A stretch of 64,000 nucleotides of DNA from Curtobacterium sp. GC_Cur_3. Its GTDB lineage: Bacteria > Actinomycetota > Actinomycetes > Actinomycetales > Microbacteriaceae. A program made the translations under genes and the position numbers. Position 1 is the first letter of the stretch. Every line of letters starts with the position of its first letter. The DNA lies in assembly GCF_026544205.1 (NCBI RefSeq), contig NZ_JALNUI010000007.1:62001-126000 (forward strand), in the 5' to 3' direction. This document shows positions 41,747 to 57,289 of the stretch, piece by piece. The notes beneath the pieces are model-generated. The model worked only from the letters and a program-made list of their open reading frames with translations, did no database searches and was not told the DNA's origin.

Positions 41747-43513
41747 TCAGTCCTCGACGAGACGCGTCAGCCGGATCGCCATGTACTGGCGACCGGGCAG
41801 GTCGACCACGAAGCGACCGGAGACGGTGCGCGGCAGCTTCTCGATGGTCATGCCCCACGTGTCGAGGACCTCGACCTCCCACTCGATCGTCGGGTCGTGG
41901 AAGAAGCGGCGGAAGCGTGGTCGGTTGAACCCGTAGTAGTAGACGAGCTGTTGACCGGGCACACCGGCGACGGTCGCGTCCCAGTCGGAGGGCACCGGTT
42001 CGAGGACTCCGTGCGGGGAGCCCTCGACGACGTCGGTCAGGAAGCGGATCCGGTCCGGACTCGTGCCGCGCAGCGCCCCGCCCTTGGCCCACCACAGGAC
42101 CTCGTCCGCGGCGAAGTAGGTCTCACCGTGACCGACGTAGCCGCCGCGGAGCGTGCCTTCCCAGAAGCGCCGGGTGAGCTCCTCCCCGGTGATGTTCCCC
42201 CAGCCCTGGTCGATGTCGCCCTCGTACGCGATCTCGTCGATCACGACGGGCTTGCCCCAGGCGCTGCGCCACTCCCCCGTCTGCTCGGCCGTCCGCACGG
42301 GATCGATGCGCTGCATGCTGACGTGGGTGATCCAGGGCCGTGACTGGTCGTACACCTGCCGGCAGTTGTGGATGGACCGGAGGTGGTCGGCGGCGTCCCA
42401 GTGCTGGATGATCGCTGCCCACCGCTCCCAGTCGGCCTCGGTCTTGTCGAACAGCAGGTCGAACTCGTTCGCGAGCGCCCACCAGACGTTCCGGAACGCA
42501 CCGAGTCGGGCGACGACGTACCGGACGTACCGGTCGTCGGAGGCCGCATCCATCGTGGAGAAGCCCCAGCGGTCGTACGCGTGGAACAGGATGAGGTCCG
42601 CCTCGATGCCGAGCGCTCCGAGGTCGTCGATGCGGCGCTCGAGGCGGTCCCAGTACTCCGGGTCGAACCGCTCGAGGTCGAAGGTGCCGTCGTCGTTCCG
42701 GGCGAAGGGGTAGCGCTCCGGGTCGTTGCTGTTGAACGTGTAGGACTTCGGGAAGACGCACATCCGGATCTTCGTGAAGGGCGACCCTGCCAGAGTGTCG
42801 AGCGTCTCCTGCTGGAGCGCCTCCGGCTGGTGCGTCCAGGCGTAGCTCGTCGTCCCGATCGGCAGGTAGCGCGTGCCGTCGGCGTAGCGGAAGTGGAACC
42901 CGTCGGCGACGCGGACCGGGCCGTGGGACGGTCCGGCCGTGATGTCCATGGTCCCGGTCATCCCGTCGAGGGACCGCGCGTTGCTCGTCGTCTCCCACCG
43001 CCATTCGCCGACCGTCGGCGGCAGGAACCGGATCCGGTACTCGCCGCCCCCGGCGGCGAACCCAAGCACGTCGGCGCTCGCGCCGTCCGGTCCGAAGAAC
43101 CGGGCGGTCAGTTCGACGTCGGTGAAGGGGTTGCCGTGGGACGGACCGTCGAGACGGATCTCGAGTCGTTCCCAGAGCCTCCCGTCGGTCGGGGCGGAGA
43201 CCCCTGCAGACGCCTGTGGGACGTCCTGGGACTCGTGGTCGCGCGACGGCGCCGGAGGCGGACGGTGTCCCGTCGTCGGGGTACCGGGGCGTCCGATCGC
43301 CTCGAGCTCGGCGAGCACGGCCCGGCGGTCCTCGTCGGTGAGGGCCTCCTCGGTGTCCAGCACGAGGCCGAGGGGTTGTCCGTGGTACGTGTGCAGGAGT
43401 GTCGACTCCACGACGGAGGGCGCGTGCCGTCGGAGCACAGCGGCGGCGGCGTGGTCCCGGAGGACGTCGAACAGTGGGGACGTCGCGTCGAACGCGGCGG
43501 TGCCGTCGGTCAT
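41747..43513 (-). CDS. DUF5060-type glycoside hydrolase (clan-A-like barrel)
   Basis: This 588-residue protein has an N-terminal helical segment (residues 5-75), a Pro-rich linker, a DUF5060-type beta domain (about 112-195: LWERLEIRLDGPSHGNPF, RFLPPTVGEWRWE) and a TIM-barrel hydrolase with likely acid/base Glu350 (WWALANEFD) and nucleophile Glu427 (VVIDEIAYEG). A C-terminal DUF5605-like beta domain follows. No signal peptide, so cytoplasmic. It ends sugar operon 4 and should cleave the imported oligosaccharide. Specificity unknown. Confidence 0.85.
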   Translation of the reverse strand: MTDGTAAFDATSPLFDVLRDHAAAAVLRRHAPSVVESTLLHTYHGQPLGLVLDTEEALTDEDRRAVLAELEAIGRPGTPTTGHRPPPAPSRDHESQDVPQASAGVSAPTDGRLWERLEIRLDGPSHGNPFTDVELTARFFGPDGASADVLGFAAGGGEYRIRFLPPTVGEWRWETTSNARSLDGMTGTMDITAGPSHGPVRVADGFHFRYADGTRYLPIGTTSYAWTHQPEALQQETLDTLAGSPFTKIRMCVFPKSYTFNSNDPERYPFARNDDGTFDLERFDPEYWDRLERRIDDLGALGIEADLILFHAYDRWGFSTMDAASDDRYVRYVVARLGAFRNVWWALANEFDLLFDKTEADWERWAAIIQHWDAADHLRSIHNCRQVYDQSRPWITHVSMQRIDPVRTAEQTGEWRSAWGKPVVIDEIAYEGDIDQGWGNITGEELTRRFWEGTLRGGYVGHGETYFAADEVLWWAKGGALRGTSPDRIRFLTDVVEGSPHGVLEPVPSDWDATVAGVPGQQLVYYYGFNRPRFRRFFHDPTIEWEVEVLDTWGMTIEKLPRTVSGRFVVDLPGRQYMAIRLTRLVED

Positions 43514-43515
43514 GG

Positions 43516-44433
43516 TCAACCCTTCACGGCACCGGCGAGGGCGCCCTGGACGAAGTAGCGCTGGAACATCAGGTAGACGATCAGGACCGGCAGGATCGAC
43601 ATGATGATGTAGGCGTTCAGCTGGGGGTAGTTGGACCCGTACTGGGTCTGGAAGTTCGTGATGCCGAGCGGGATCGTGAACTGGTCGGTGGTCTGCAGCA
43701 GCGTCAGTGCCATCGGGTACTCGTTCCACGTCGACACGAAGTCGAGGATGAACAACGCCGCGAGGGCCGGCTTCGCCAGCGGCAGGATGACCTGGAAGAA
43801 CAGCCGCCAGTTCGACGCACCGTCGATGCGTGCGGCCTCGTCGAGGTCCTCAGGGATCGCCTTGAAGAAGCCGTAGAGGATGAACACCTGGTACGAGACA
43901 CCGAACGCCAGGTACGGCAGCAGGATGCCGAGCTTGGTGTTGAGCAGGTTGAGGCTGAGCATCGTGGAGAACAGCGGTCCGAGGGCGACCTGCACGGGGA
44001 TGAGCGTGCCGAGGGCGATGACGCCGAGCAGCAGTTGCTGCCACCGGAAGCGGAGGCGTGAGAGCGCGAAGGCGGCCATCGCGGACAGGAACAGCCCGAG
44101 TGGCACCTTGATCACGGCGATCACGAGGCTGTTCGCTCCGGACTGCCAGATGTTGCCGACCTGTGCTGCGTCGGTGTAGTTGCCCCAGTCCCAGGTCGTC
44201 GGGAGTGCCCACGGTGCGAGGTTCGCGACGTCGGCCTGGCTCTTCACCGAGGTGATGAACATGAAGACGAACGGGACGATCCAGATCACGGCGGCGATGA
44301 CCAGCGCGATCCAGAGGCCGACGAGCCCCCAGTCGCGGTGCCGTCCGGTGGTGACGGCCGAGCTGGTCTGCGTGCGGCTGTGACCCCGGGTGGCTGTGTC
44401 GATGGCGGCCACGGGTTCGATTGCGGTGCTCAT
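43516..44433 (-). CDS. Sugar ABC transporter permease, MalG type
   Basis: This 305-residue CUT1 permease has a Thr/Ser-rich N-terminus, six membrane segments and an EAA loop DLDEAARIDGASNWRLFF. The ATG at 44433 overlaps the MalF stop (ATGA). It ends 3 bases before the hydrolase gene starts, so the two are tightly coupled. Confidence 0.94.
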   Translation of the reverse strand: MSTAIEPVAAIDTATRGHSRTQTSSAVTTGRHRDWGLVGLWIALVIAAVIWIVPFVFMFITSVKSQADVANLAPWALPTTWDWGNYTDAAQVGNIWQSGANSLVIAVIKVPLGLFLSAMAAFALSRLRFRWQQLLLGVIALGTLIPVQVALGPLFSTMLSLNLLNTKLGILLPYLAFGVSYQVFILYGFFKAIPEDLDEAARIDGASNWRLFFQVILPLAKPALAALFILDFVSTWNEYPMALTLLQTTDQFTIPLGITNFQTQYGSNYPQLNAYIIMSILPVLIVYLMFQRYFVQGALAGAVKG

Positions 44434-45371
44434 GCTTCCCTGCTCCCTCGGAAGGTCCAGACCATGTACGGGATGACGAGGATCATGCTGACGACGAACA
44501 GGACGGTGGCGATCGCGTTGCCGAGCCCGAACACGTGGTTCGAGAAGGACTGCTGGTAGGACCAGAGCGCGAGCACCTGCGTCGACTGCGCAGGTCCTCC
44601 GCCGGTGGTGCCGACGATGAGGTCGAAGACCTTCAGCGAGCTGATCATCGTCAGGACGACGACGATGATGGTCGTCGGCCGGAGTGCCGGCCAGGTCACG
44701 GCGCGGAAGATCTGGACGCGACCGGCGCCGTCCAGCTTCGCCGCCTCGACCAGTTCCTCCGGCACGTTCTGCAGGCCCGCCAGGTACAGCACCATGTTGA
44801 AGCCCGCGGTCTGCCAGACGAAGGCCACGAACACCGCGTAGAGCGCGATGTGGGAGTTGCCGAGCCAGTCCTGCGACAGCGCGTGCAGTCCGACCGCGTC
44901 GAGGACGCCGTTGACCAAGCCGGACTGGGGGTTGTAGAGCCACACCCACATGGTCGCGACGGCGATCGACGCCAGGACCGCGGGGATGTAGAACGCCGAT
45001 CGGAGCAGGTTGCGTCCGAACAGCTTCCGGTTCAGACCGAGCGCGATGCCCAGCCCCAGTGCCGTCGGGACGACCAGGGACAGGACGACCCAGACGACCG
45101 TGTTCCGGAACGCCGGCCAGAAGACCGGGTCCTGCGTGAAGATGCGGACGTAGTTGTCGAACCCGACGAACGTCTTCGGGGACGTCGCGAAGCCGTCCCA
45201 CGCGAAGAAGCTCATGACGACCGTCGAGGCCATCGGGTACACGAGGAAGACGACGAAGAGCGCGATCGCGGGGAGCAGGAAGGGCAGCGCAGCTCGCCAC
45301 CCTGAGGGACGGCGCCCCGCACGCCGACGGGTCTCCCGTTGGCGTGCGGGGGTGACACGGACCGATGTCAT
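44430..45371 (-). CDS. Sugar ABC transporter permease, MalF type
   Basis: This 313-residue CUT1 permease has a very basic N-terminus (about 25 residues), six membrane segments and an EAA loop ELVEAAKLDGAGRVQIFR. It starts one base after the binding-protein stop. Confidence 0.94.
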   Translation of the reverse strand: MTSVRVTPARQRETRRRAGRRPSGWRAALPFLLPAIALFVVFLVYPMASTVVMSFFAWDGFATSPKTFVGFDNYVRIFTQDPVFWPAFRNTVVWVVLSLVVPTALGLGIALGLNRKLFGRNLLRSAFYIPAVLASIAVATMWVWLYNPQSGLVNGVLDAVGLHALSQDWLGNSHIALYAVFVAFVWQTAGFNMVLYLAGLQNVPEELVEAAKLDGAGRVQIFRAVTWPALRPTTIIVVVLTMISSLKVFDLIVGTTGGGPAQSTQVLALWSYQQSFSNHVFGLGNAIATVLFVVSMILVIPYMVWTFRGSREA

Positions 45372-45372
45372 G

Positions 45373-46653
45373 TCAGTTCCCGGAGCGGTTCTCGATGAAG
45401 GTCTGCATCTCCGAGCCGGCGGCGGCGGGCTTGATGGACCCGGTCGCGACGCCGTTCATGATGCGCCAGTACTCCGTCGTCACGTCCAGCGGGAGGGTCT
45501 GGTCGTTGTTCTGGAACTGGCCCTTGGCCTCGCTGGCCAGCGCGTTGAACGGCTCGCTGAGGCCGACCCCGTTGTCCTTCACCGGGACGCCCTCGACGAC
45601 GGGGACCTGCGACCAGGCGCCGGCGTACTTCGTCTGTTCGGCCTTGCTCATCCAGAAGTCCAGGAACTTCGCGGCGGCATCGGGGTTCTTCGAGGTCTTC
45701 GAGATGTAGTTGGCCTGCTGGAGGCCGTAGATGCGGTCGGTCCCGGTCGGGAACGCGAACACTCCGAGGTCCGACGTCGGGGAGAACTTCGCCTCACCCA
45801 GGAAGCCGGCGAACCAGTCGCCCTCGAGCGCCATGGCAGCCTTCTTCTGGTAGAAGACCTGCTGGCCCTGGGCGTCACTCATGCTGACCCAGCCCGTGTT
45901 GAAGTACTTCGTCGCCCAGGTCTTCAGATCGGAGAAGGACTTCGTGACGCACTCCTCCTTGCCCCAGTCGGCTTTCAGCGCGGTCAGCTCGTCGTTGGTC
46001 TTCGCCCCGCAGTTCGTCTCGAGCAGGTTGTCGAGTAGCCGCATCACGTACCAGTTGACGTTCCCGCCGAACTCGATGGGGGTGATGCCCGCGTCGGTGA
46101 GTTTCTGCGCGGCGTCGACGAGTTCGTCGTACGTGGTGGGCGTCGACGTGATCCCCGCCTTCGCGAACAGTGCCTTGTTGTAGACGATCGCTTCGACGTT
46201 CGCGGTGTACGGCACCCCGTGGTGTCCGCCGTACTGTGTGACCGACTGCAGTGCGCTCTTCGTGAAGCGCTTGTCCCACCCGTACTTCTCGTAGTACTTC
46301 GTCAGGTCGAGGTCGACGCCCTGCTTGACGTAGGTGCCACCGAGGCCGAGGCCGGACCACTGGAAGTACACGTCCGGCATCGCCGGCGTGCCAGCCGCCT
46401 GCCGCAGTGCGGTCTTCAGCGAGTCGGTGCTCTTCTGTGTCACGTTGACCGTGATGTCCGGGTTGGCCTTCTCGAAGTCCGCGACCATCGACTTCAGTGC
46501 CTTCGCGGCCGGCCCCTGCTGCGTGGTGATCCAGTAGTTGACTGTGGTCTTGCCGCCACTGTCGGCGCTGCCTCCGGCCGAGCAGCCCGTGAGGCCGAGT
46601 GCGATCGCCGCACCGGCAGCCACCAGCGCGATCCCGAAACGTCGTTGTCTCAT
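45373..46653 (-). CDS. Sugar ABC transporter substrate-binding lipoprotein
   Basis: This 426-residue extracellular solute-binding protein has a lipoprotein signal ending LTGC (Cys24). Features: VNYWITTQQGPAAKALK near the start, ALEGDWFAGFLG in the second lobe, and a Cys pair (ETNCGAK and KEECVTK). The ATG at 46653 has a good site (AAGGAG) and gives a normal signal length; the frame extends 14 codons upstream without a signal-like sequence. It is the first gene of operon 4. Confidence 0.95.
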   Translation of the reverse strand: MRQRRFGIALVAAGAAIALGLTGCSAGGSADSGGKTTVNYWITTQQGPAAKALKSMVADFEKANPDITVNVTQKSTDSLKTALRQAAGTPAMPDVYFQWSGLGLGGTYVKQGVDLDLTKYYEKYGWDKRFTKSALQSVTQYGGHHGVPYTANVEAIVYNKALFAKAGITSTPTTYDELVDAAQKLTDAGITPIEFGGNVNWYVMRLLDNLLETNCGAKTNDELTALKADWGKEECVTKSFSDLKTWATKYFNTGWVSMSDAQGQQVFYQKKAAMALEGDWFAGFLGEAKFSPTSDLGVFAFPTGTDRIYGLQQANYISKTSKNPDAAAKFLDFWMSKAEQTKYAGAWSQVPVVEGVPVKDNGVGLSEPFNALASEAKGQFQNNDQTLPLDVTTEYWRIMNGVATGSIKPAAAGSEMQTFIENRSGN

Positions 46654-46695
46654 GTCATCTCCTTCGATGCGCGAGGAAGCCCTCGCTCGCCGCAC

Positions 46696-46730
46696 TGTGT
46701 TATGGGTAACACATGAGCGTTACGGATAAC
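46696..46730. promoter_or_regulatory. Pair of LacI operators for operon 4
   Basis: TGTGTTATGGGTAACACA (46696-46713) is an 18-bp palindrome with a 4-base centre, and GTTACGGATAAC (46719-46730) is a second one. Both match GTTA-N4-TAAC, with centres 20 bp apart. They lie between the divergent LacI and binding-protein genes. Confidence 0.65.
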
Positions 46731-46814
46731 ATAGGCACGAGGTGTCGCCCCCCGCAAGGGGCTGGCGGGAATTGGTCCACCGGTTGATGGGTGGCGATCG
46801 AGAGCGGGAGCCGC

Positions 46815-47900
46815 ATGGAACGCGGAGCGGGGTCGACCGAACCGGCACGGCGGCCGAGCATGGCGGACGTCGGACGCGCTGCGCAGGTCTCCGCGCAGAC
46901 CGTCTCGCGGTTCTACACCGGCGGCTACGTCTCAGCAGAGACGAAGGGGCGGATCGAGCGAGCGGTCCGCGAACTCGGCTACCGGCACAGTCGGTTGCCC
47001 CAGATCCTCCGGGCGCAGCACACGGACACGATCGGGTTCCTCGCGATGGGCCCGCTGAACTTCGGCAACACCGGGATCCTGACCGGCATCAGCAGAGCTG
47101 CGCGCGCGGAGGGGCAGTCCCTCCTCACCGCGCAGCTCGACCTCGACCCGGACGCGCCGAGCACCCGGGGCGAGGTGCGGCGCGCACTCGGGAACTTCAC
47201 CTCGATGCGCGTCGACGGCATCGTCGTCGGGACCCCGTACCTCGGTGTCGAGACGGTCCTGGAGGACATCGGCGCCTCGGTCCCGGTCGTGTCGCTGTCC
47301 GAACGCGCGACGGGCGGTGTCACGTCCGTCCACGCGGACTCCTACGGTGCCGCCCGCCTCGGGACACGCCACCTGCTCGACCTCGGGCACCGGAGGATCC
47401 TCCACCTCGCCGGTCCGGGCAACCGGAACGAGGCATCCGAGCGGGTCCGCGGCTACCGGGACGAACTCGCCGCGCACGACGTCGACGAGCTGCCGCTGCT
47501 CCACTGCGCCGAATGGGACGCGCAGTCGGGAGCCGCGGCAGCGGAAGCAGCCGATCCGGCCACGTTCACCGGTGTCCTCTCGGCGAACGACGAGATCGCG
47601 CTCGGCTTCGTCAGTGTGCTCCGGGAGCGTGGGTTCAGCGCCCCCGCCGACTTCTCCATCGTCGGGATCGACGACATGCCCGAGGCGACCTTCTTCAGCC
47701 CGCCCCTGACCACGTCCCGTCTCGACTTCGAAGCGCTCGGCGAGACCGCCTTCCGGCTCCTCCTGGACCAGATCCGAGGCACCTCAGCAGCGAGTCGGGT
47801 CCTGCCGAGCACGCTCACGGTGCGCTCGTCCACGCGCGCGCTCGACGGGCGCCCGTCAGACTCCGGGGTCGCTCCAGCGGCGGACCTCCCCGCCGGTTGA
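46815..47900 (+). CDS. LacI-family repressor of sugar operon 4
   Basis: This 361-residue LacI regulator has a helix-turn-helix at about residues 16-37 (SMADVGRAAQVSAQTVSRFY) and a full effector domain (GVLSANDEIALGFVSVLRER; FSIVGIDDMPEATFFSPPLT). The ATG at 46815 has GGGAG four bases upstream; a GTG at 46791 is in frame but has less support. It is divergent from operon 4 and should repress it. Confidence 0.93.
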   Translation: MERGAGSTEPARRPSMADVGRAAQVSAQTVSRFYTGGYVSAETKGRIERAVRELGYRHSRLPQILRAQHTDTIGFLAMGPLNFGNTGILTGISRAARAEGQSLLTAQLDLDPDAPSTRGEVRRALGNFTSMRVDGIVVGTPYLGVETVLEDIGASVPVVSLSERATGGVTSVHADSYGAARLGTRHLLDLGHRRILHLAGPGNRNEASERVRGYRDELAAHDVDELPLLHCAEWDAQSGAAAAEAADPATFTGVLSANDEIALGFVSVLRERGFSAPADFSIVGIDDMPEATFFSPPLTTSRLDFEALGETAFRLLLDQIRGTSAASRVLPSTLTVRSSTRALDGRPSDSGVAPAADLPAG

Positions 47901-47932
47901 GCGCGTCGCGCCGGGGGTGGGGCTCACGGCAT

Positions 47933-47964
47933 GGAGGCTCGGTGCCAGCTGGTGGGGAGCCTCC
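47933..47964. terminator. Imperfect, apparently recombinant F1 hairpin
   Basis: Outer arms GGAGGCTC/GAGCCTCC pair and the centre is CCAGCTGG. The inner arms do not match: the left reads CGGTGCCAG as in the 17794 copy, and the right reads CTGGTGGGGAGCC as in the 36917 copy. It follows the LacI gene of operon 4. Confidence 0.65.
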
Positions 47965-47995
47965 CGTCCGCCGTCGGTGCCGGCTGGCAAGCGGG

Positions 47996-48085
47996 ATCGC
48001 GCGTCGATGGTCGGAAGTTCCGACCCCCAACGCGCGATTCGACCTGCCACGCGCGGATCGACCCGCAACGCGCTGATCGACCGCC
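47996..48085. repeat. Long F2 palindrome and trailing 20-base repeats
   Basis: The arms at 47996-48016 and 48018-48038 (ATCGCGCGT...GGTCGGAA / TTCCGACC...ACGCGCGAT) pair with a few mismatches around a single-base loop. They are followed by degenerate repeats of ACGCGCGATTCGACCTGC. Related elements are at 30281-30492 and 51248-51375. Confidence 0.65.
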
Positions 48086-48107
48086 CTCCCGCGGCTACGG
48101 TGACCGT

Positions 48108-49514
48108 GTGCACCGAGCAGCGTCGACGACCGACTCCAGCGCGTCCGACGACCGCAGCCTGCTCGTGGTCGCGCCCGACGCCCGCCGCCGCCCGGCGCGG
48201 ACGACCCCGTGGGGCCGCGTCCTCGTGGGGGTCGTCCTCGTCGCCCTGCTCGGTGGCGCCGCGGTGGCCACGGTCGGGACCCTCGTGTCGCAGCGCACGG
48301 CGGAGCGCTTCGCGGTCGAGGACGCCACCGACGACACCGCCGCCGTCGCCCGTTCGGTCGTCGAACCCGCGCTCCTCGACGATCTCGCGGACCGCGACGC
48401 ACCAGCCGCCCGCCGAGCAGCCGCCGCGGACGAGCTCGCCCGTGCCGTCCGGGGTGTCACCGCGGCGAGCGCCGCCGTCCGCGTGAAGCTCTGGGCGCCG
48501 GACGGCACCGTGCTGTGGTCGGACGAACCCCGGCTGGTCGGGCAGCGGTTCGCCCTGTCGGAGGACGACCTCGAGGCGCTCGAGACCGACCGGTCCGACG
48601 CCGAGGTGTCGGACCTGACCGAGCCGGAGAACCGCTACGAACGCGGTCAGGGGCGGCTGCTCGAGGCGTACCAGGCGGTGCACACCCCGTCGGGCGCACC
48701 GCTGCTGCTCGAGGTCTACTACCCGTACGACGCCGTGTTGGCCAGTGCCGCGTCGCTCCGGTCGGCGTTCGCGACGCTCGCGTTCGGGACGGTCGCGGTC
48801 GCCGTGGCGCTGCTCCTGCCCGTCGTGCTGTGGCTGCTGCTCCGGCTGCGGGCGGGCCAACGGGAGCGGGAGCGTCTGCTCGTGCGGGCGCTCGACGCGG
48901 AGACCGCCGAGCGTCGTCGTCTGGCGGCGGACCTGCACGACGGGCCCGTCCAGGACATCGCCGGGCTCGCCCTGTCGCTCGGCGCCGCGGCCCGCACCAC
49001 GACCGGCTCCGGGGCGGCGGTGCTCGACGAGTCCGCGACGACGCTCCGGGCGGCGGTGTCGACGCTGCGGTCCTCGATGTCGGCGATCCAGCCGCCGGTG
49101 CCCGACCGGCAGGGACTCGTGGCGGCGCTCGACGACGCGACGGCTCGGGGTCGGGCGGCCGGTGTGCGGACGGCCGTGTCGGTGCCGTCGACGATCGACG
49201 CCTCCCCCGCCGCACTGCTCGCGACGGTGCGGTTCGTCCGCGAGTCGGTCGCGAACACGGTCCGGCACGCGGGGGCCTCGGCGGTCGAGGTCGTCGTCCG
49301 TCGGAGCGGCGAGGACCTCGTCGTGGTGGTCACCGACGACGGCGTCGGGTTCGACCCGGACGGCGTCCTGTCCACGCGGCGGAGCGGGCACCTCGGCACG
49401 ACGCTGCTGCGCCAGATCGCGGAGGACGCCGGTGGTGCCCTCCGCCTGCGCACCGCGCCGGGCTCCGGTACGCGTTGGGAGCTCTCGATCCCCGCAGGAG
49501 GACGCGGATGGTGA
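48108..49514 (+). CDS. Sensor histidine kinase, NarL/HPK7 type
   Basis: This 468-residue membrane kinase has a cytoplasmic N-terminus, a first membrane helix (about 37-60), an extracellular sensor (about 61-220, with two VRVKLWAPDG/GAPLLLEVYY strands suggesting a PAS/Cache-like fold) and a second helix (222-247). A HisKA_3 dimer domain follows with phosphoacceptor His277 (ADLHDGPVQDIAGLA) and an ATPase domain with Asn383 (ESVANTVRH) and DDGVGFD. It starts with GTG at 48108; TACGGT a few bases upstream may be a -10, making the message leaderless. It overlaps its response regulator by 7 bases. Confidence 0.92.
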   Translation: MHRAASTTDSSASDDRSLLVVAPDARRRPARTTPWGRVLVGVVLVALLGGAAVATVGTLVSQRTAERFAVEDATDDTAAVARSVVEPALLDDLADRDAPAARRAAAADELARAVRGVTAASAAVRVKLWAPDGTVLWSDEPRLVGQRFALSEDDLEALETDRSDAEVSDLTEPENRYERGQGRLLEAYQAVHTPSGAPLLLEVYYPYDAVLASAASLRSAFATLAFGTVAVAVALLLPVVLWLLLRLRAGQRERERLLVRALDAETAERRRLAADLHDGPVQDIAGLALSLGAAARTTTGSGAAVLDESATTLRAAVSTLRSSMSAIQPPVPDRQGLVAALDDATARGRAAGVRTAVSVPSTIDASPAALLATVRFVRESVANTVRHAGASAVEVVVRRSGEDLVVVVTDDGVGFDPDGVLSTRRSGHLGTTLLRQIAEDAGGALRLRTAPGSGTRWELSIPAGGRGW

Positions 49515-51384: not shown

Positions 51385-53913
51385 TCAGCGGGGGATGACC
51401 GAGAACAGGAACTTCCGGCGGACCATGTACCAGGCGAGCAGGATCAGCGCCGAGTGCACCGCGAAGCCGATCCACACGTTGCCCCAGTCGACGCCCGGGA
51501 TCGACGCGATCGCCAGCGCGAAGAACACCTGCCAGACGAACACGTAGAGGCTCGCCTGCCCGATCGGGATCCACAGCCAGCCGATGGCCGCGTTGATCGG
51601 CTTCCAGAACACCGTGAGCAGCGCGTAGGACACGATCGCGAAGAACGCGATGTCGACCAGCCGTCCCCACTGCAGGTCGACGCGCTGGTACGCGGTGTTG
51701 TAGAGCTGGTCGTACATCGACGCCGGGAACGGCACGGGCGTGAACCCGAACTGCGCGGCCGCCCAGACGTACACCAGGAACGCCGCGTAGCCGACGACCC
51801 CGACGCCGATGAGCACCTTGCCGAGGCGGCCGGTCAGCGCGCCGACGATCTGGCGCCGGTAGTACCCGAGCACCAGGCCGTGCGTGAAGACGATCTGCCA
51901 GGTGAGGAGCGGGAACACCGCCTCGAACTGGGAGTGCAGCGGCTGGAAGGCCGGGTTCAGCGCCTGGAACACGTACAGCGCCCAGCTGCCGGCGAGCACC
52001 GCCCACCAGAAGCCCCGGCGGATGACCCAGAGCAGCGGCGGGATGAACAGGCTCAGCACCACGAACAGGCCCATGATGTTGAACGGCCACGGGCCCATCT
52101 CGAGCAGCAGGAACTGCCGGATCGCGTACCAGGGCGGCGGGTACGCCAGGAGCTGCATGGCGTTCGGGTAGAGGTCGTAGACGCGCCCCTCGGCCCCGAC
52201 GCCGCCGGTGCCGGTCCCCCGGTCCGTGAAGGTCGTGATCGCGTCCGTGTCGAGGAACGGCACGAAGCTCAGGACGAAGACCACCGCGATCACCACGAGC
52301 GTGACGAGGTACTGCTTCCGCGCGCGCTTCCACGCACCGACGGCCGCCGCCCACTCGCCGAACCGCTTGATCGCCAGCGGGTACGTCATGCCGAGGACCA
52401 TGCCGGAGAGGAACACGAACATCTCCGCGCCCGTGATCGCCCCGACCGCGTGCAGCGTGATGAACGAGTACGGGCCGCCGATCTCGATGTGGGTGATCAC
52501 CACCGCGAGGATGATGAACCCGCGGAACAGGTCGAGGCGGAGGTCACGCCCGGGCTTGCCGTCGTCCGGGTAGCGCCAGCTCGGCACGAGTCGGCCGACG
52601 ACGCCGCTCAGCAGGAACGCCAGTGCCAGGCCGACCGCGACCCAGACGATCCAGGCCATCTGGTCGCCGCCGGTGTCGAGCTGCTGGTTCGTCGCGACGG
52701 CGCCGTCCCGGTGCGTCACCTCCTCGGTGACGGGGCCGGTCACGAACCGGTCCGTGGCCAGGAGGTCCCGGCGGAAGGACGCCGCCACACCGCTGTCAGC
52801 CGTGTCGCGCCAGTCGGCCAGGCGGTTGCCGGCCTCGGGCTCGCGCCGGTTCGTCTCGACGAAGGTCACGGCGCGGACGTAGGGACGGTCCTGGACCGCC
52901 GCGAACACCTGGTTCCACCAGCCCTGCTTCACGGGGAGCTCGTCGGCGCCGCGCAGCGCGTGGTCGTACAGGGCGCCGGTGTCGAGCAGCATCGGGCGGT
53001 CGTGGCCGACGGCGAAGCGGTCGGAGAACGTCTGCGGCTGCTGCCGGTCGTAGCCCCAGCGCTCGTCGAAGCGGGCCTCGACCTCGCCGGCGGTGGGGAC
53101 CTCGTTCGTCATCAGCGGGACGTCGCGCCCGGCGGCCTGGGTCGCCGCGCCCTTGCCGAAGGAGAACATCGACAGCCCGACCCAGTCGACGGCGGCGTCA
53201 CCCGGCCAGTACGGGCCGTAGGGGTCGTCCGCGGCGGTGAGCGCCCCGTCGCCGTTCGTGTCGAGACGTTCGACGTCGGTGGCCGACAGGTCGCGGAGCC
53301 GTCCGGCCGACTCCCCGAACGGGTAGCCCGCGCCGTACGACGGCGACCAGACCATGGCCGCGTCGGACGACCCGGCGTGTACCGCCTCGGCCAAGCCCTG
53401 GAACGCCCGGACGTACTGCGTCGGCTGCTGCCCCCACTGCACCCACGTGCCGTTCATCTGCGGGGCGAACCGGACGAGCAGCTGCGTGCCGTACTGCCGG
53501 TGGATCTGCTCGAACAGCGTGTTCGTACGACGGGCGTCGGCGGTGGTGAGGGACCCGAGGGCGACGCCGGGCTCGAGCCCCACGACGAGGGTCGCGCCCT
53601 GCGCCGCAGCAGCACGGGTCGAGCGGAGCAGCAGCCGTTCGGCGGCGCGGTCGAGCGGGTACTGGATCTCCACGCCGTAGGTGGACGGGGTCGCCCCGAG
53701 TCGTCCCTCGTACCCGTCGGGCGCGTCCGCGCCCCAGTCGAGGTCCGGGCCGAACCACGCCTTCCCGCTGGGCGGGGCGATCGGTCCCGTCGCCGCCGCC
53801 GACGGCTTCGCAGTGGCCGTCGCCGTCGCCGCCTGCGCGGGCGCGACGCCACCGAGCAGCAGCGTGCCGGCGGTGACGATGAGGGCGATCAGGCGGACGA
53901 GGTGCCCCCTCAC
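51385..53913 (-). CDS. GH26-like domain fused to OpgC-type membrane acyltransferase
   Basis: This 842-residue fusion has a signal peptide (cleavage near AQA-A, residue 29) and a GH26-like barrel (about 52-390). At the usual acid/base site it reads RFAPQMNGTWVQW with Gln152 instead of Glu, and at the likely nucleophile site RPMLLDTGA with Asp311. A calcium-loop-like DTNGDGALTAAD (218-229) precedes YWPGDAAVDWVG. After a membrane helix (about 419-441) comes an OpgC domain (RDLRLDLFRGFIILAVVITH, about 457-842) with about ten helices, expected to transfer acyl or succinyl groups to a glucan. It starts with GTG, overlapping the ATPase gene. Confidence 0.85.
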   Translation of the reverse strand: MRGHLVRLIALIVTAGTLLLGGVAPAQAATATATAKPSAAATGPIAPPSGKAWFGPDLDWGADAPDGYEGRLGATPSTYGVEIQYPLDRAAERLLLRSTRAAAAQGATLVVGLEPGVALGSLTTADARRTNTLFEQIHRQYGTQLLVRFAPQMNGTWVQWGQQPTQYVRAFQGLAEAVHAGSSDAAMVWSPSYGAGYPFGESAGRLRDLSATDVERLDTNGDGALTAADDPYGPYWPGDAAVDWVGLSMFSFGKGAATQAAGRDVPLMTNEVPTAGEVEARFDERWGYDRQQPQTFSDRFAVGHDRPMLLDTGALYDHALRGADELPVKQGWWNQVFAAVQDRPYVRAVTFVETNRREPEAGNRLADWRDTADSGVAASFRRDLLATDRFVTGPVTEEVTHRDGAVATNQQLDTGGDQMAWIVWVAVGLALAFLLSGVVGRLVPSWRYPDDGKPGRDLRLDLFRGFIILAVVITHIEIGGPYSFITLHAVGAITGAEMFVFLSGMVLGMTYPLAIKRFGEWAAAVGAWKRARKQYLVTLVVIAVVFVLSFVPFLDTDAITTFTDRGTGTGGVGAEGRVYDLYPNAMQLLAYPPPWYAIRQFLLLEMGPWPFNIMGLFVVLSLFIPPLLWVIRRGFWWAVLAGSWALYVFQALNPAFQPLHSQFEAVFPLLTWQIVFTHGLVLGYYRRQIVGALTGRLGKVLIGVGVVGYAAFLVYVWAAAQFGFTPVPFPASMYDQLYNTAYQRVDLQWGRLVDIAFFAIVSYALLTVFWKPINAAIGWLWIPIGQASLYVFVWQVFFALAIASIPGVDWGNVWIGFAVHSALILLAWYMVRRKFLFSVIPR

Positions 53914-54311
53914 CGCTCGCACACCAGGGTCCAGACGTTGTGGCCGTGCTCGTGCCGGTGCTCCAGCCGGTCGAGCGCCGCCAGGGCCAGCGCCAGTCCG
54001 CGGCCGCTCTCGGCCTCGACGTCCGCCATGGTCACCGCGGCGAGGTCGATGTCGACGGGCAGCCCGTTGTCGCGGAGGACGGCCGTGAAGGCCTGGTCCG
54101 TGGCCTCGAGCTGCACCGTGTAGCGGCGCCCCTCCTGCTGGTCGCGGCGCCCGGTGTGCTCGACGATGTTCGCCGCGATCTCGGCCAGGGCGGTCTCGAG
54201 GGCGAACCGGTGGGCGACGTCGTCGACGCCGAGGCCGTCCCACCAGGTGGCGAAGCGGTCCTGCACCGTGTCGAGGCTGGTCGGGACGGCGGGGACGTCG
54301 AACGTGGTCAC
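53910..54311 (-). CDS. RsbW-like ATP-binding (anti-sigma-type) regulatory protein
   Basis: This 133-residue single-domain HATPase_c_2 protein has an N-box AEIAANIVEH, a DxG-like LRDNGLP and a glycine loop ESGRGLALALAAL. Such proteins are usually serine kinases or anti-sigma factors that act through an STAS antagonist, but no RsbV-like or sigma gene is near. It is coupled by GTGA overlaps to the glycosyltransferase before it and the OpgC fusion after it, so it probably regulates this polysaccharide pathway. Confidence 0.88.
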   Translation of the reverse strand: MTTFDVPAVPTSLDTVQDRFATWWDGLGVDDVAHRFALETALAEIAANIVEHTGRRDQQEGRRYTVQLEATDQAFTAVLRDNGLPVDIDLAAVTMADVEAESGRGLALALAALDRLEHRHEHGHNVWTLVCER

Positions 54312-56332
54312 AGGGGTCCTCCGGCGGTGCTCGACGTGTGGCCGGACTGCCCGCTGGGGGCCGGTCCGCGGTACAGCACCGCTCGGATGACGATGCTGAA
54401 GATGACGAGGTCGAAGACGACCCAGGCGGTGTTGACGAGCGGCGCGACACCGGACGCCTGCCCCGTGAGGTACCGGACACCGATCAGGAGCAGCGCGGCG
54501 ACGAGCGACCCCATCGCGAACAACTGCGGTCGGACCAGGTCCCACCGGGGCTTCATGGCGGTTTCGTCGCGGACCTTCGGCGTCACGCGGAACCCGAGGG
54601 GCTTGCCGCGGAACACGTTCTCGAACGCGCTGGTCACGCTCTCGATCCACACCGGGAACAGCGCGAGCGAGTACTGCTGGCCGCGCCAGGTCGGCCTGCC
54701 CGCGGCGACGACCCAGAACAGCAGCTGGTTGAGCACCAGGAACGGGATGAGCCGGGCGAAGAAGTCGACGCTGTAGGCCTGCACGGGGACCACGCCGAAC
54801 GACAGACACAGCACCGGCGCGGCGATGTACACGATCGCCGCGAAGCCGGACAGGTAGCTCCACATGGTCGAGAAGTACATGAGCCGCTGCCCGAACGACA
54901 GACCCTTCTGCACCAGGGGGTTCTCGCGGAAGAACACCTGCATCGTGCCCTGCGCCCACCGGAGCCGCTGGACGAGCATCGTCGGCAGGTCCTCGGGTGC
55001 CAGGCCCTTCGCCAGGATCTCGTCGTGGTACGCCGACCGCCAACCGAGCCCGTGCAGGCGCATCGCGGTCGCCATGTCCTCGGTCACCGAGATGGTGGCC
55101 AGCGGCATGATCGGCTGGGCCTCGTCCCCGCGGTTGACGTCGACGGCCCTGGCCAGCACGGCGATCGCCTCGATGGCGGCGACGGGCGAGGCGTTCCGCT
55201 GCCCGAGGACGTCGAGCGCCGCGTCGTCGAGCCCCGCGAAGGTGTCCGCGTCGGTCGACATCGCCGCGAGTTCCTGCAGGTCGTTCCGCACGGACTCGAG
55301 GTCGGCCGCGGCGAAGCGGAACGCGATGGCGTCGATGCCACGCTGGAAGTCGTACGTGACGTCGCCGAGGGGCTCGTCGGCGGCCATCTGGTCGCGGGCG
55401 CGGTCCACCACGGCCTCGGCGTCGTCGAGCGCGCCGAGCACACGCGGATCGGTCTCGTCCTCGCGGGCGCGGGAGAGCAGGCGGCGGGACGTCACCAGCG
55501 TGCGCCGCACCGAGGTCTCGACCTCGCGCACGTAGCGGGAGATCCCGAGCTGCATCAGCGCCTCGCGACGGAGGATCGCGTTCGACCCGCAGAAGAACGC
55601 GGCGTTCCAGCCGTCCTTCGACTGCTGGATGGGGCCGTAGAACAGCGGGGCCTGGCTGCCGAGCAGGTCGGCGTCCGGCACGTTCTCGAACCACTGCGGG
55701 GTCTGCACGAGCGCCATCCGCGGGTCCTTGAAGTACCCGAGCGTGCGGTCGAGGATCGCCGGGTCCGGCACCTGGTCGGCGTCGAGGATGAGCAGGAACT
55801 CCCCCTGCGTCGACAGCAGCGCGTTGTTGAGGTTCCCGGCCTTCGCGTGCCGGGGGCGGTCGACCCAGTCCTGCCCGCGCGTGATCACGCCGAGCCCGGC
55901 CTCTGCAGCCGCCGCACGCATGTCGGCGCGGTTGCCGTCGTCGAGGATCCACGTGCTGTGCGGGTACCGGATGGCCTGCGCCGCGAGCGCGGTGCGCATC
56001 ACCAGGTCGACCGGTTCGTCGTAGGTGGTGATGAAGACGTCCACGGTGACGTCGGTCGTCGGCGGGGTCGGCGGTTCGCCCCGCTCGCGGAGCTTCCAGG
56101 CGCCGAACGCGAAGAGCAGCGAGTCGATCACGCTGTACGTCTCGGCGAGGACCAGCGGCACGGCGATCCACCACGAGTGCCAGTTCACCGACGCCGACCA
56201 GCGCCAGCCGACGTAGTTGATCCCCGCCAGGGAGGCCAGCAGCGCGACGGTCCGCACGGTGACCAGCCGTCGTCGCCCCGTGCTCCCGCCGAGACGTCGA
56301 CGGTCCTGCCTGCTGACGTCGAGCGCGGTCAC
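54308..56332 (-). CDS. Processive family 2 glycosyltransferase, BcsA-like
   Basis: This 674-residue membrane synthase has two N-terminal helices (about 30-78) and a GT2 domain with DVFITTYDEP (98-107), the metal-binding DAD (184-186), acceptor motif GSNAILRR (249-256), TED (417-419) and QRLRW (455-459). It then has about five C-terminal helices. It should polymerise an NDP-sugar and export the chain. The TED is 231 residues from the DAD, against roughly 100 in cellulose synthases, because of an inserted helical segment at about 272-410. There is no PilZ domain. The GTG at 56332 is the best start. Confidence 0.88.
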   Translation of the reverse strand: MTALDVSRQDRRRLGGSTGRRRLVTVRTVALLASLAGINYVGWRWSASVNWHSWWIAVPLVLAETYSVIDSLLFAFGAWKLRERGEPPTPPTTDVTVDVFITTYDEPVDLVMRTALAAQAIRYPHSTWILDDGNRADMRAAAAEAGLGVITRGQDWVDRPRHAKAGNLNNALLSTQGEFLLILDADQVPDPAILDRTLGYFKDPRMALVQTPQWFENVPDADLLGSQAPLFYGPIQQSKDGWNAAFFCGSNAILRREALMQLGISRYVREVETSVRRTLVTSRRLLSRAREDETDPRVLGALDDAEAVVDRARDQMAADEPLGDVTYDFQRGIDAIAFRFAAADLESVRNDLQELAAMSTDADTFAGLDDAALDVLGQRNASPVAAIEAIAVLARAVDVNRGDEAQPIMPLATISVTEDMATAMRLHGLGWRSAYHDEILAKGLAPEDLPTMLVQRLRWAQGTMQVFFRENPLVQKGLSFGQRLMYFSTMWSYLSGFAAIVYIAAPVLCLSFGVVPVQAYSVDFFARLIPFLVLNQLLFWVVAAGRPTWRGQQYSLALFPVWIESVTSAFENVFRGKPLGFRVTPKVRDETAMKPRWDLVRPQLFAMGSLVAALLLIGVRYLTGQASGVAPLVNTAWVVFDLVIFSIVIRAVLYRGPAPSGQSGHTSSTAGGPL

Positions 56333-56445: not shown

Positions 56446-57186
56446 CTACCTCAGGGGAGGCGTCGTTGTCACGCCCCCGATCGCGGAGAACCCGATGTCG
56501 GCGGCCAGCCGTTCGACGAGCCGGTCGAAGTACTCGGCGTGGTCCGCGACCACGCCGACGGTGTGGCCGAACAGCTCGAAGGACACCGCGCCGAACAGGG
56601 TCGTCCACGCCATGATCGTCCGCATCACGGCCTCTGCCGGGGCATCGTCGGTGATCCCGCGCGACCGGACGTAGGCGAGCGCCGGTGCGACCACGCCGCC
56701 GACCGCAGCCGGCGCCGGCGACACCGAGGGCGTCGGGACCGCACGGTCGGCCATGGCGTCCACCGCGATCCGGACCAGCACCTGTGTGACCCGGGTGGCC
56801 GGCTCGATCGTCTCCTGCGGGGCCGCGTACCCGGGCACCGGACTGCCGTAGAGCAGTGCGAAGTCCCCCGGGTGTTCGAGGGACCAGGTCCGCACGGCCC
56901 GGCACGCGGCCATCCACCGCCCGCCGACGTCCGTGCGCTCGTGCCCGGCGTCCGCCCGTTCGACGGCCTCGCCGAGCTCGTCGTAGTCCTGCACGAGCAG
57001 CGCGGTGAGCAGGTCGTCGCGGCTCGGGAAGTACCGGTACACCGCGGAGGAGACCATCCCCACGTCACGCGCCACCGCACGGAGGCTCAGCTGCGCGGGC
57101 CCCTCCCCCGTCAGCCGCACGCGCGCCGCTTCGAGGATCCGGGAGCGGAGTGCCTGTCTGGCCAGTGCACGCGCCGTCTCGACCAT
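56446..57186 (-). CDS. TetR-family transcriptional regulator
   Basis: This 246-residue TetR has a DNA-binding domain at about residues 13-60 (LSLRAVARDVGMVSSAVYRY) and a TetR_C_33/WHG-type ligand domain. The ATG at 57186 is chosen; the frame extends 15 codons upstream into the operators. It is divergent from the epimerase-like gene at 57313. It also lies 113 bases upstream of the glycosyltransferase on the same strand and might be cotranscribed with it. Confidence 0.92.
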   Translation of the reverse strand: MVETARALARQALRSRILEAARVRLTGEGPAQLSLRAVARDVGMVSSAVYRYFPSRDDLLTALLVQDYDELGEAVERADAGHERTDVGGRWMAACRAVRTWSLEHPGDFALLYGSPVPGYAAPQETIEPATRVTQVLVRIAVDAMADRAVPTPSVSPAPAAVGGVVAPALAYVRSRGITDDAPAEAVMRTIMAWTTLFGAVSFELFGHTVGVVADHAEYFDRLVERLAADIGFSAIGGVTTTPPLR

Positions 57187-57223: not shown

Positions 57224-57289
57224 GAGAGCACTGCTCTTGCGCAGGCATGCCAGGGGTGCGATGCTCAGCGAAGCGAGAGCAGTGCTCTC
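57224..57289. promoter_or_regulatory. TetR operator pair
   Basis: GAGAGCACTGCTCTT (57224-57238) and the perfect GAGAGCAGTGCTCTC (57275-57289) share the pattern GAGAGCA-N-TGCTCTC, with centres 51 bp apart. A degenerate half-site, GAGAGCGGTGCC, lies at 57205. They fill the gap between TetR and the epimerase-like gene. Confidence 0.7.

Follow-up and report, generated by a model that had tools for sequence, protein, structure and literature searches.

How is a BcsA-like polysaccharide synthase controlled when it lacks a PilZ domain, and what is an anti-sigma-type ATPase doing beside it? The question is raised by a three-gene operon of Curtobacterium sp. GC_Cur_3, located in a stretch of 64,000 nucleotides (contig NZ_JALNUI010000007.1, positions 62,001 to 126,000), the whole of which is referred to here as the window. 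A sequence-only reading had described a processive GT2 synthase (P0001), a lone RsbW-like ATPase (P0002) and a fusion of a GH26-like domain with an OpgC acyltransferase (P0003), all joined by GTGA overlaps, and had seen no BcsB/BcsC-like, PilZ, STAS or sigma-factor partner. This description stood up well. The coordinates and both overlaps were confirmed (Table 1), and Pfam, motifs and fold agree on the nature of the synthase. A Pfam scan of nine proteins (the operon and six neighbours) returned no BcsB/BcsC-type, STAS or sigma match, BcsB not having been searched genome-wide, and found no PilZ domain in the synthase. We think it probable that the operon derives, by rearrangement, from an actinobacterial module comprising a PP2C phosphatase, a synthase, a STAS protein and a kinase, in which the switch acts on the synthase, and that this module has been dispersed in Curtobacterium.

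The switch module in related actinobacteria

The gene order of relatives was read from 80 named loci, the best 80 of 575 and a set biased to close kin. Twelve were of the Curtobacterium type, one of these being filed only as Microbacteriaceae, and 68 fell outside this group. In 64 of the 68, synthase, STAS and ATPase genes are directly consecutive, a STAS gene of about 110 codons occupying the position at which the two window genes overlap, and 60 have a SpoIIE/RsbU-type PP2C gene within 3 kb. Within 4 kb of the same 68 synthases a GH26-like gene was found in 19 cases and OpgC in 16. The hosts include Nocardioides, Arthrobacter, Rhodococcus, Gordonia, Mycolicibacterium, Cellulomonas, Kocuria, Clavibacter and Frigoribacterium. 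The phosphosite motif D-S-S/T-G is present in 82 of 86 STAS matches and absent from those of L062 and L063; two were not resolved by the pattern. Among 150 genomes of the window's own bacterial family, a match to the ATPase occurs somewhere in all 23 that encode a synthase with a long insert (described below), versus 8 of the 127 others, so that the co-occurrence of ATPase and synthase which the sequence-only reading had proposed as a check was indeed found. Its picture of an RsbW-like switch protein without a STAS partner holds for the window and fails for most relatives, which carry both STAS and PP2C beside the synthase. The absence of these two genes from the window operon is a derived loss, and the idea that this ATPase belongs to a family without a STAS partner by nature was rejected, since STAS adjoins it in outgroup loci. 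The open-access literature searched, whose coverage is partial and from which absence from print is not claimed, held no account of this gene order or module.

Several loci depart from the simple arrangement. An Arthrobacter contig (L181) carries two STAS-ATPase pairs, one following the matched synthase and the other adjoining a PP2C gene with a short synthase-like remnant upstream. In L056 and L061 an additional STAS-ATPase pair lies 5' of the synthase, and in L056 the ATPase frame runs on into a PP2C-like protein, giving a kinase-phosphatase fusion.

The STAS-less operon of Curtobacterium

An orthologous ATPase lies beside the synthase in 61 of 66 genomes of the genus, and STAS is absent from 59 of these 61 operons. 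The gene has been cleanly excised: 58 of the 59 STAS-less operons share the junction CCNCTGTGA, the exception being G159, in whose assembly (L097) the synthase frame is disrupted close to the end and the ATPase is intact. The GH26-like/OpgC gene comes next in 60 of the 61, the contig of G184 ending first. Recurrence of the three-gene order, the other check proposed from the sequence, was thus established, with synthase and ATPase directly adjacent in 59 of the 66 congeneric genomes and GH26-like/OpgC following in 58 of those 59 (G184 again runs off its contig); because the order recurs in this way, it is not due to chance. STAS is kept only in G190 and G191, with PP2C upstream, and among the orthologues compared none has diverged further than the synthases of these two (80% identity); the nearest named relatives of the window synthase, also from Curtobacterium, are 86–95% identical to it. 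None of the five genomes of the genus without an orthologous synthase carries an orthologous ATPase. In four of them (G158, G162, G165 and G172) no long-insert synthase was found, G158 being only 65% complete, and the fifth, G151, has a different long-insert synthase with its own STAS and ATPase. The draft state of the assemblies limits all such claims of absence.

Of the 59 STAS-less genomes, 57 have a second STAS-ATPase pair, unlinked to the synthase; it is missing from two poor assemblies (G170, 790 contigs; G212, 73% complete). Neither of the STAS-keeping genomes has such a pair. In the five loci that were read (those of G000, G031, G105 and G162, and of the genome containing L123) it is flanked by an MFS gene on one side and an AraC gene on the other, and the G105 STAS carries DSSG. 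At the same chromosomal place (PPC..AraC..NIF3), G151 has synthase, STAS and ATPase in a row with a PP2C gene adjoining on the opposite strand. Phylogenetic analysis placed the five orphan STAS proteins and the synthase-linked STAS of G151 in one clade (support 98/95), and the window ATPase with the synthase-linked ATPases of G190, G191 and Frigoribacterium (support 98/94); the ATPase tree leaves the placement of the G151 ATPase unsettled. The likely history is one of two modules, of which one lost its STAS gene and the other its synthase. Unlinked PP2C genes are also present in the genome of the window, one of them encoding a protein 49.5% identical to the PP2C of G151. A parallel is seen in Arthrobacter G214 and G215, where a synthase-GH26-OpgC operon has no switch, and a PP2C-STAS-ATPase operon without a synthase, related to the synthase-linked ones, is found elsewhere in the genome.

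The candidate target of the switch

The window synthase shares its fold and catalytic motifs (DDG, DAD, TED and QRLRW) with the cellulose synthase BcsA (4hg6, 7lby, 9b8v). The best match of its AlphaFold2 model (mean pLDDT 75) is E. coli BcsA (9b8v; TMq 0.64). Unlike BcsA, it has no PilZ domain, no BcsB among its scanned neighbours and a CelA (NCBIfam) score of 333.7 bits, far under the equivalog cut-off of 699.1, and it possesses an insert of 147 amino acids before TED (Table 1). This insert is unmatched in BcsA and in the insert-less BcsA-like paralogues of the same bacterial family, and no Pfam family matched it above cut-off. It measures 144–166 amino acids in 24 of the 26 sequences compared (the window included), 110–111 in the other two, and 147–161 in the named loci, where five have 151–153. 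The model has helices at 256–291, 296–317 and 322–358, with moderate confidence only. In position alone the insert may be likened to the class-specific region that plant cellulose synthases possess.

Insert and STAS occur together. In 25 family genomes, 21 of the 24 long-insert synthases and both short-insert ones have a STAS gene no more than 1 kb away; the 12 insert-less synthases among the matches listed, more of which may exist, have none (Fisher p 3.6e-7, long-insert against insert-less). The three long-insert synthases without a nearby STAS are those of Curtobacterium genomes. In G133 (L062, 7546–9933) a STAS domain is fused to the C-terminus of the synthase (Pfam 26.4 bits against a cut-off of 22.6). 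Here and in G118 the STAS has no phosphoserine motif, the insert is the shorter one, and a search of both genomes gave no match to this ATPase. SigB/F-like sigma factors, taken as matches of at least 197 bits, were present in 9 of 28 genomes, and in none of the 28 did a match reach the curated cut-off of 234.35; they were missing from 14 of the 23 genomes with a long-insert synthase, those of Curtobacterium among them. The association of insert and STAS, the natural fusion and the absence of such sigma factors point to the synthase as the target of the switch.

In the module as we picture it, an RsbU-like PP2C, an insert-bearing BcsA-like synthase, an RsbV-like STAS protein and an RsbW-like kinase would work together, with GH26-OpgC next to them in some lineages. 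The kinase would phosphorylate the STAS serine, the off state, and PP2C would remove the phosphate, the on state; the unphosphorylated STAS protein would engage the synthase at or near the insert, in place of the c-di-GMP and PilZ of BcsA. With the STAS and PP2C genes gone from the Curtobacterium operon and the ATPase still coupled to the synthase gene, the antagonist would probably be supplied in trans by the STAS-ATPase pair left behind when the second module lost its synthase. The polymer, perhaps of the beta-glucan or mannan type, would leave the cell through the synthase and receive acyl groups from OpgC. In a more specific version, STAS would be a direct allosteric subunit of a whole family of BcsA-like synthases, docking on the insert in place of c-di-GMP/PilZ control, and phosphorylation of its serine would turn polymer synthesis on and off with no transcription factor involved. 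Curtobacterium and the Arthrobacter lineage would each have split this device into an operon with the synthase but no STAS and a switch locus with no synthase, the two cooperating in trans; this we offer tentatively, leaning slightly against it.

Could the switch be a conventional anti-sigma system that just happens to lie next to the synthase? Its RsbV/RsbW-like domain composition and the SigB/F-like factors in some genomes would suit this, but the majority of long-insert genomes have no such factor, and a general stress anti-sigma role was rejected as the principal interpretation for that reason. Moreover, STAS and ATPase track the insert-bearing synthase, to which STAS can even be fused, and in G000, where the best sigma match scores 132.9 bits, a weaker one of 97 bits adjoins a frame resembling flagellin by eye. 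We consider such a system very improbable. A better case, though still an unlikely one, can be made for the ATPase itself binding and inhibiting the synthase, as RsbW does sigma, with no STAS involved in Curtobacterium and with ATP state or a TetR regulator setting the output. The ATPase has stayed with the synthase in all 59 STAS-less operons, mostly by a 4-base overlap, its ATP motifs are invariant, and a TetR gene with palindromes lies upstream in part of the genus. Against this, it is STAS and not the ATPase that is joined to the synthase in G133, and the orphan STAS has been kept in nearly all STAS-less genomes, the G105 copy with its DSSG.

The ATPase might instead be a relic, drifting since the loss of STAS and carried along by the operon. 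It scores 48.1 bits with HATPase_c_2 (cut-off 27.4), and it has the GHKL ATP-binding boxes of the RsbW/SpoIIAB family, but it reaches only 14.5 bits with the RsbW equivalog PRK04069 (cut-off 145) and has no cognate STAS gene adjacent to it; a sequence search for solved relatives gave nothing useful. The residues of these boxes (N-box E44/N48/H52, D81/G83 and GRG 103–105) are identical in all 58 STAS-less copies compared. Substitution rates (nonsynonymous, dN, and synonymous, dS) were computed over whole frames for 58 STAS-less and 65 STAS-linked copies, binned by synthase divergence, with L097 (broken synthase frame), L222 (a copy of L106), L201 (short frame) and the named Curtobacterium-type loci L122–L132 and L137 excluded. 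The mean dN/dS of the ATPase is 0.18–0.44 by bin, the largest single pair having 0.75. The ratio of ATPase to synthase dN, from pairs that are non-independent and in the STAS-linked set few, is 3.80 (99 pairs) in STAS-less versus 1.65 (7 pairs) in STAS-linked copies in the closest bin, 3.34 (546) versus 1.72 (23) in the second and 3.16 (915) versus 2.61 (3) in the third. The higher STAS-less ratio in these three bins is what a relic would lead one to expect; in the fourth (0.12–0.16) the STAS-linked ratio is not lower (3.15, n=5, versus 2.89, 88 pairs). Given the low dN/dS, the invariant motifs and the presence of the ATPase in every one of the 61 operons of the genus with an orthologous synthase, we give the relic very little credence and read the faster evolution as relaxed or changed partner contacts in a protein that has probably kept its function.

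Several observations nevertheless weigh against a dispersed module acting on the synthase. In the three closest bins the ATPase evolves, relative to the synthase, 1.2 to 2.3 times faster in STAS-less than in STAS-linked pairs, which partial decay would explain as well, and the Curtobacterium pattern is one or two evolutionary events, not 59. G162 retains the orphan pair, yet no long-insert synthase turned up in this genome, so the pair may have another job, and orphan pairs occur also in genomes with intact modules. In G026 synthase and STAS are linked with no ATPase in the surrounding 19 kb, and four Arthrobacter loci keep the insert without an adjoining switch. The bias of the named loci to close kin counts on the same side.

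The fusion protein, the neighbourhood and known systems

The OpgC part of P0003 is secure (OpgC_C, PF10129, 183.8 bits; cut-off 21.4). The GH26-like part of the window copy has no Pfam match and owes its label to homology with a relative that Pfam calls GH26 and to its fold: the model (pLDDT 89) best matches 2bv9, 7xjr and 2ddx. It has the fold of GH26 mannanases, lichenases and beta-1,3-xylanases; unlike these enzymes, it has Gln for the predicted acid/base Glu and Asp for the nucleophile Glu, the roles of the two positions being those we presume from the family motif. Both changes are common to all STAS-less Curtobacterium copies compared, and G190 and G191 retain the first Glu. Fused copies elsewhere are mixed: those of Clavibacter and several Nocardioides keep both residues, those of Frigoribacterium and Arthrobacter only the first, and a few only the second or neither. 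Active-site loss is therefore a trait of lineages and not a mark of the fusion. In Curtobacterium the GH26-like part probably lacks hydrolase activity, which suggests a domain that binds or positions the glycan beside the acyltransferase and does no cutting.

Table 1. Features of the operon and of its upstream region (positions are those of the window)
Feature	Position	Strand	Size	Basis or remark
BcsA-like processive GT2 synthase (P0001), without PilZ	54308-56332	minus	674 aa	Pfam PF03552/PF00535
RsbW-like GHKL ATPase (P0002), predicted serine kinase	53910-54311	minus	133 aa	HATPase_c_2; GTGA overlap with synthase stop
GH26-like/OpgC fusion (P0003)	51385-53913	minus	842 aa	signal-peptide-like start by eye; OpgC_C
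Junction CTGTGA; STAS gene of ~110 codons here in relatives	54308-54313	minus		gene-order comparison
Helical insert, synthase codons 264-410, between FCGSNA and TED	55103-55543	minus	147 aa	
Q152, predicted GH26 acid/base position (Glu in stand-alone relatives)	53458-53460	minus		alignments
D311, predicted GH26 nucleophile position (Glu in stand-alone relatives)	52981-52983	minus		alignments; codon counted from alignment
TetR-family regulator (TetR_C_33), directly upstream of synthase	56446-57186	minus		Pfam
Two perfect AGAGCANTGCTCT palindromes, 5' of TetR gene	57225-57237 and 57276-57288			2 observed, 0.03 expected

The TetR gene was found upstream in 7 of 14 loci tested; it is not in the STAS-keeping loci, in Frigoribacterium or in three STAS-less loci. 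A shorter pattern, GAGCANTGCTC, lies 5' of it in the seven Curtobacterium loci that have it. The palindromes are likely TetR operators, which may exert control over the whole operon. Further along the window, positions 41747–47900 hold a probable cluster for sugar uptake and breakdown, with a DUF5060/apiosidase-like/DUF5605 protein and a LacI regulator (Pfam) and transporter-like frames, judged by eye, in between. A HisKA_3-type histidine kinase is encoded on the plus strand at 47931–49514, about 2 kb past the end of the operon. A role in anti-phage defence was also considered and rejected, PADLOC giving no match for the three operon proteins.

With the RsbU/RsbV/RsbW and SpoIIE/SpoIIAA/SpoIIAB switches the module has in common the PP2C, the DSSG STAS and the GHKL ATPase, and by analogy it would work like RsbU/V/W. 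In classical partner-switch operons the STAS gene precedes the ATPase gene, as it does here. Unlike RsbU/V/W, however, the module has no sigma gene beside it in the loci seen, its constant neighbour is a polysaccharide synthase, and its parts are dispersed in Curtobacterium.

Partner switches tied to polysaccharide are already known, as far as the available parts of the papers go. In Vibrio fischeri, biofilm that depends on polysaccharide is under the STAS/kinase-phosphatase control of SypA/SypE, the active state being the unphosphorylated one, and the target of SypA is stated there to be unknown (PMC4517449, PMC8256260). SypE unites several domains in one protein and belongs to an 18-gene locus, in contrast to the separate proteins flanking a single BcsA-like synthase here. 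HmpU/V/W of Nostoc punctiforme form a partner switch in a motility and polysaccharide locus, and All4160 of Anabaena, a STAS-bearing glycosyltransferase, is a precedent for STAS on such an enzyme (PMC8256260). These are other enzymes and arrangements, and no insert-bearing BcsA-like synthase is mentioned in the available part of that paper; PMC11418112, in its corresponding part, speaks of sigma outputs.

Given a widespread module and one natural fusion, the synthase is a concrete candidate target for a polysaccharide-linked STAS protein. If our interpretation is true, it would suggest an answer to how the PilZ-less BcsA-like synthases of actinobacteria are controlled, and Curtobacterium would offer a rare case in which one can follow, at the level of species, how a signalling operon is taken apart.

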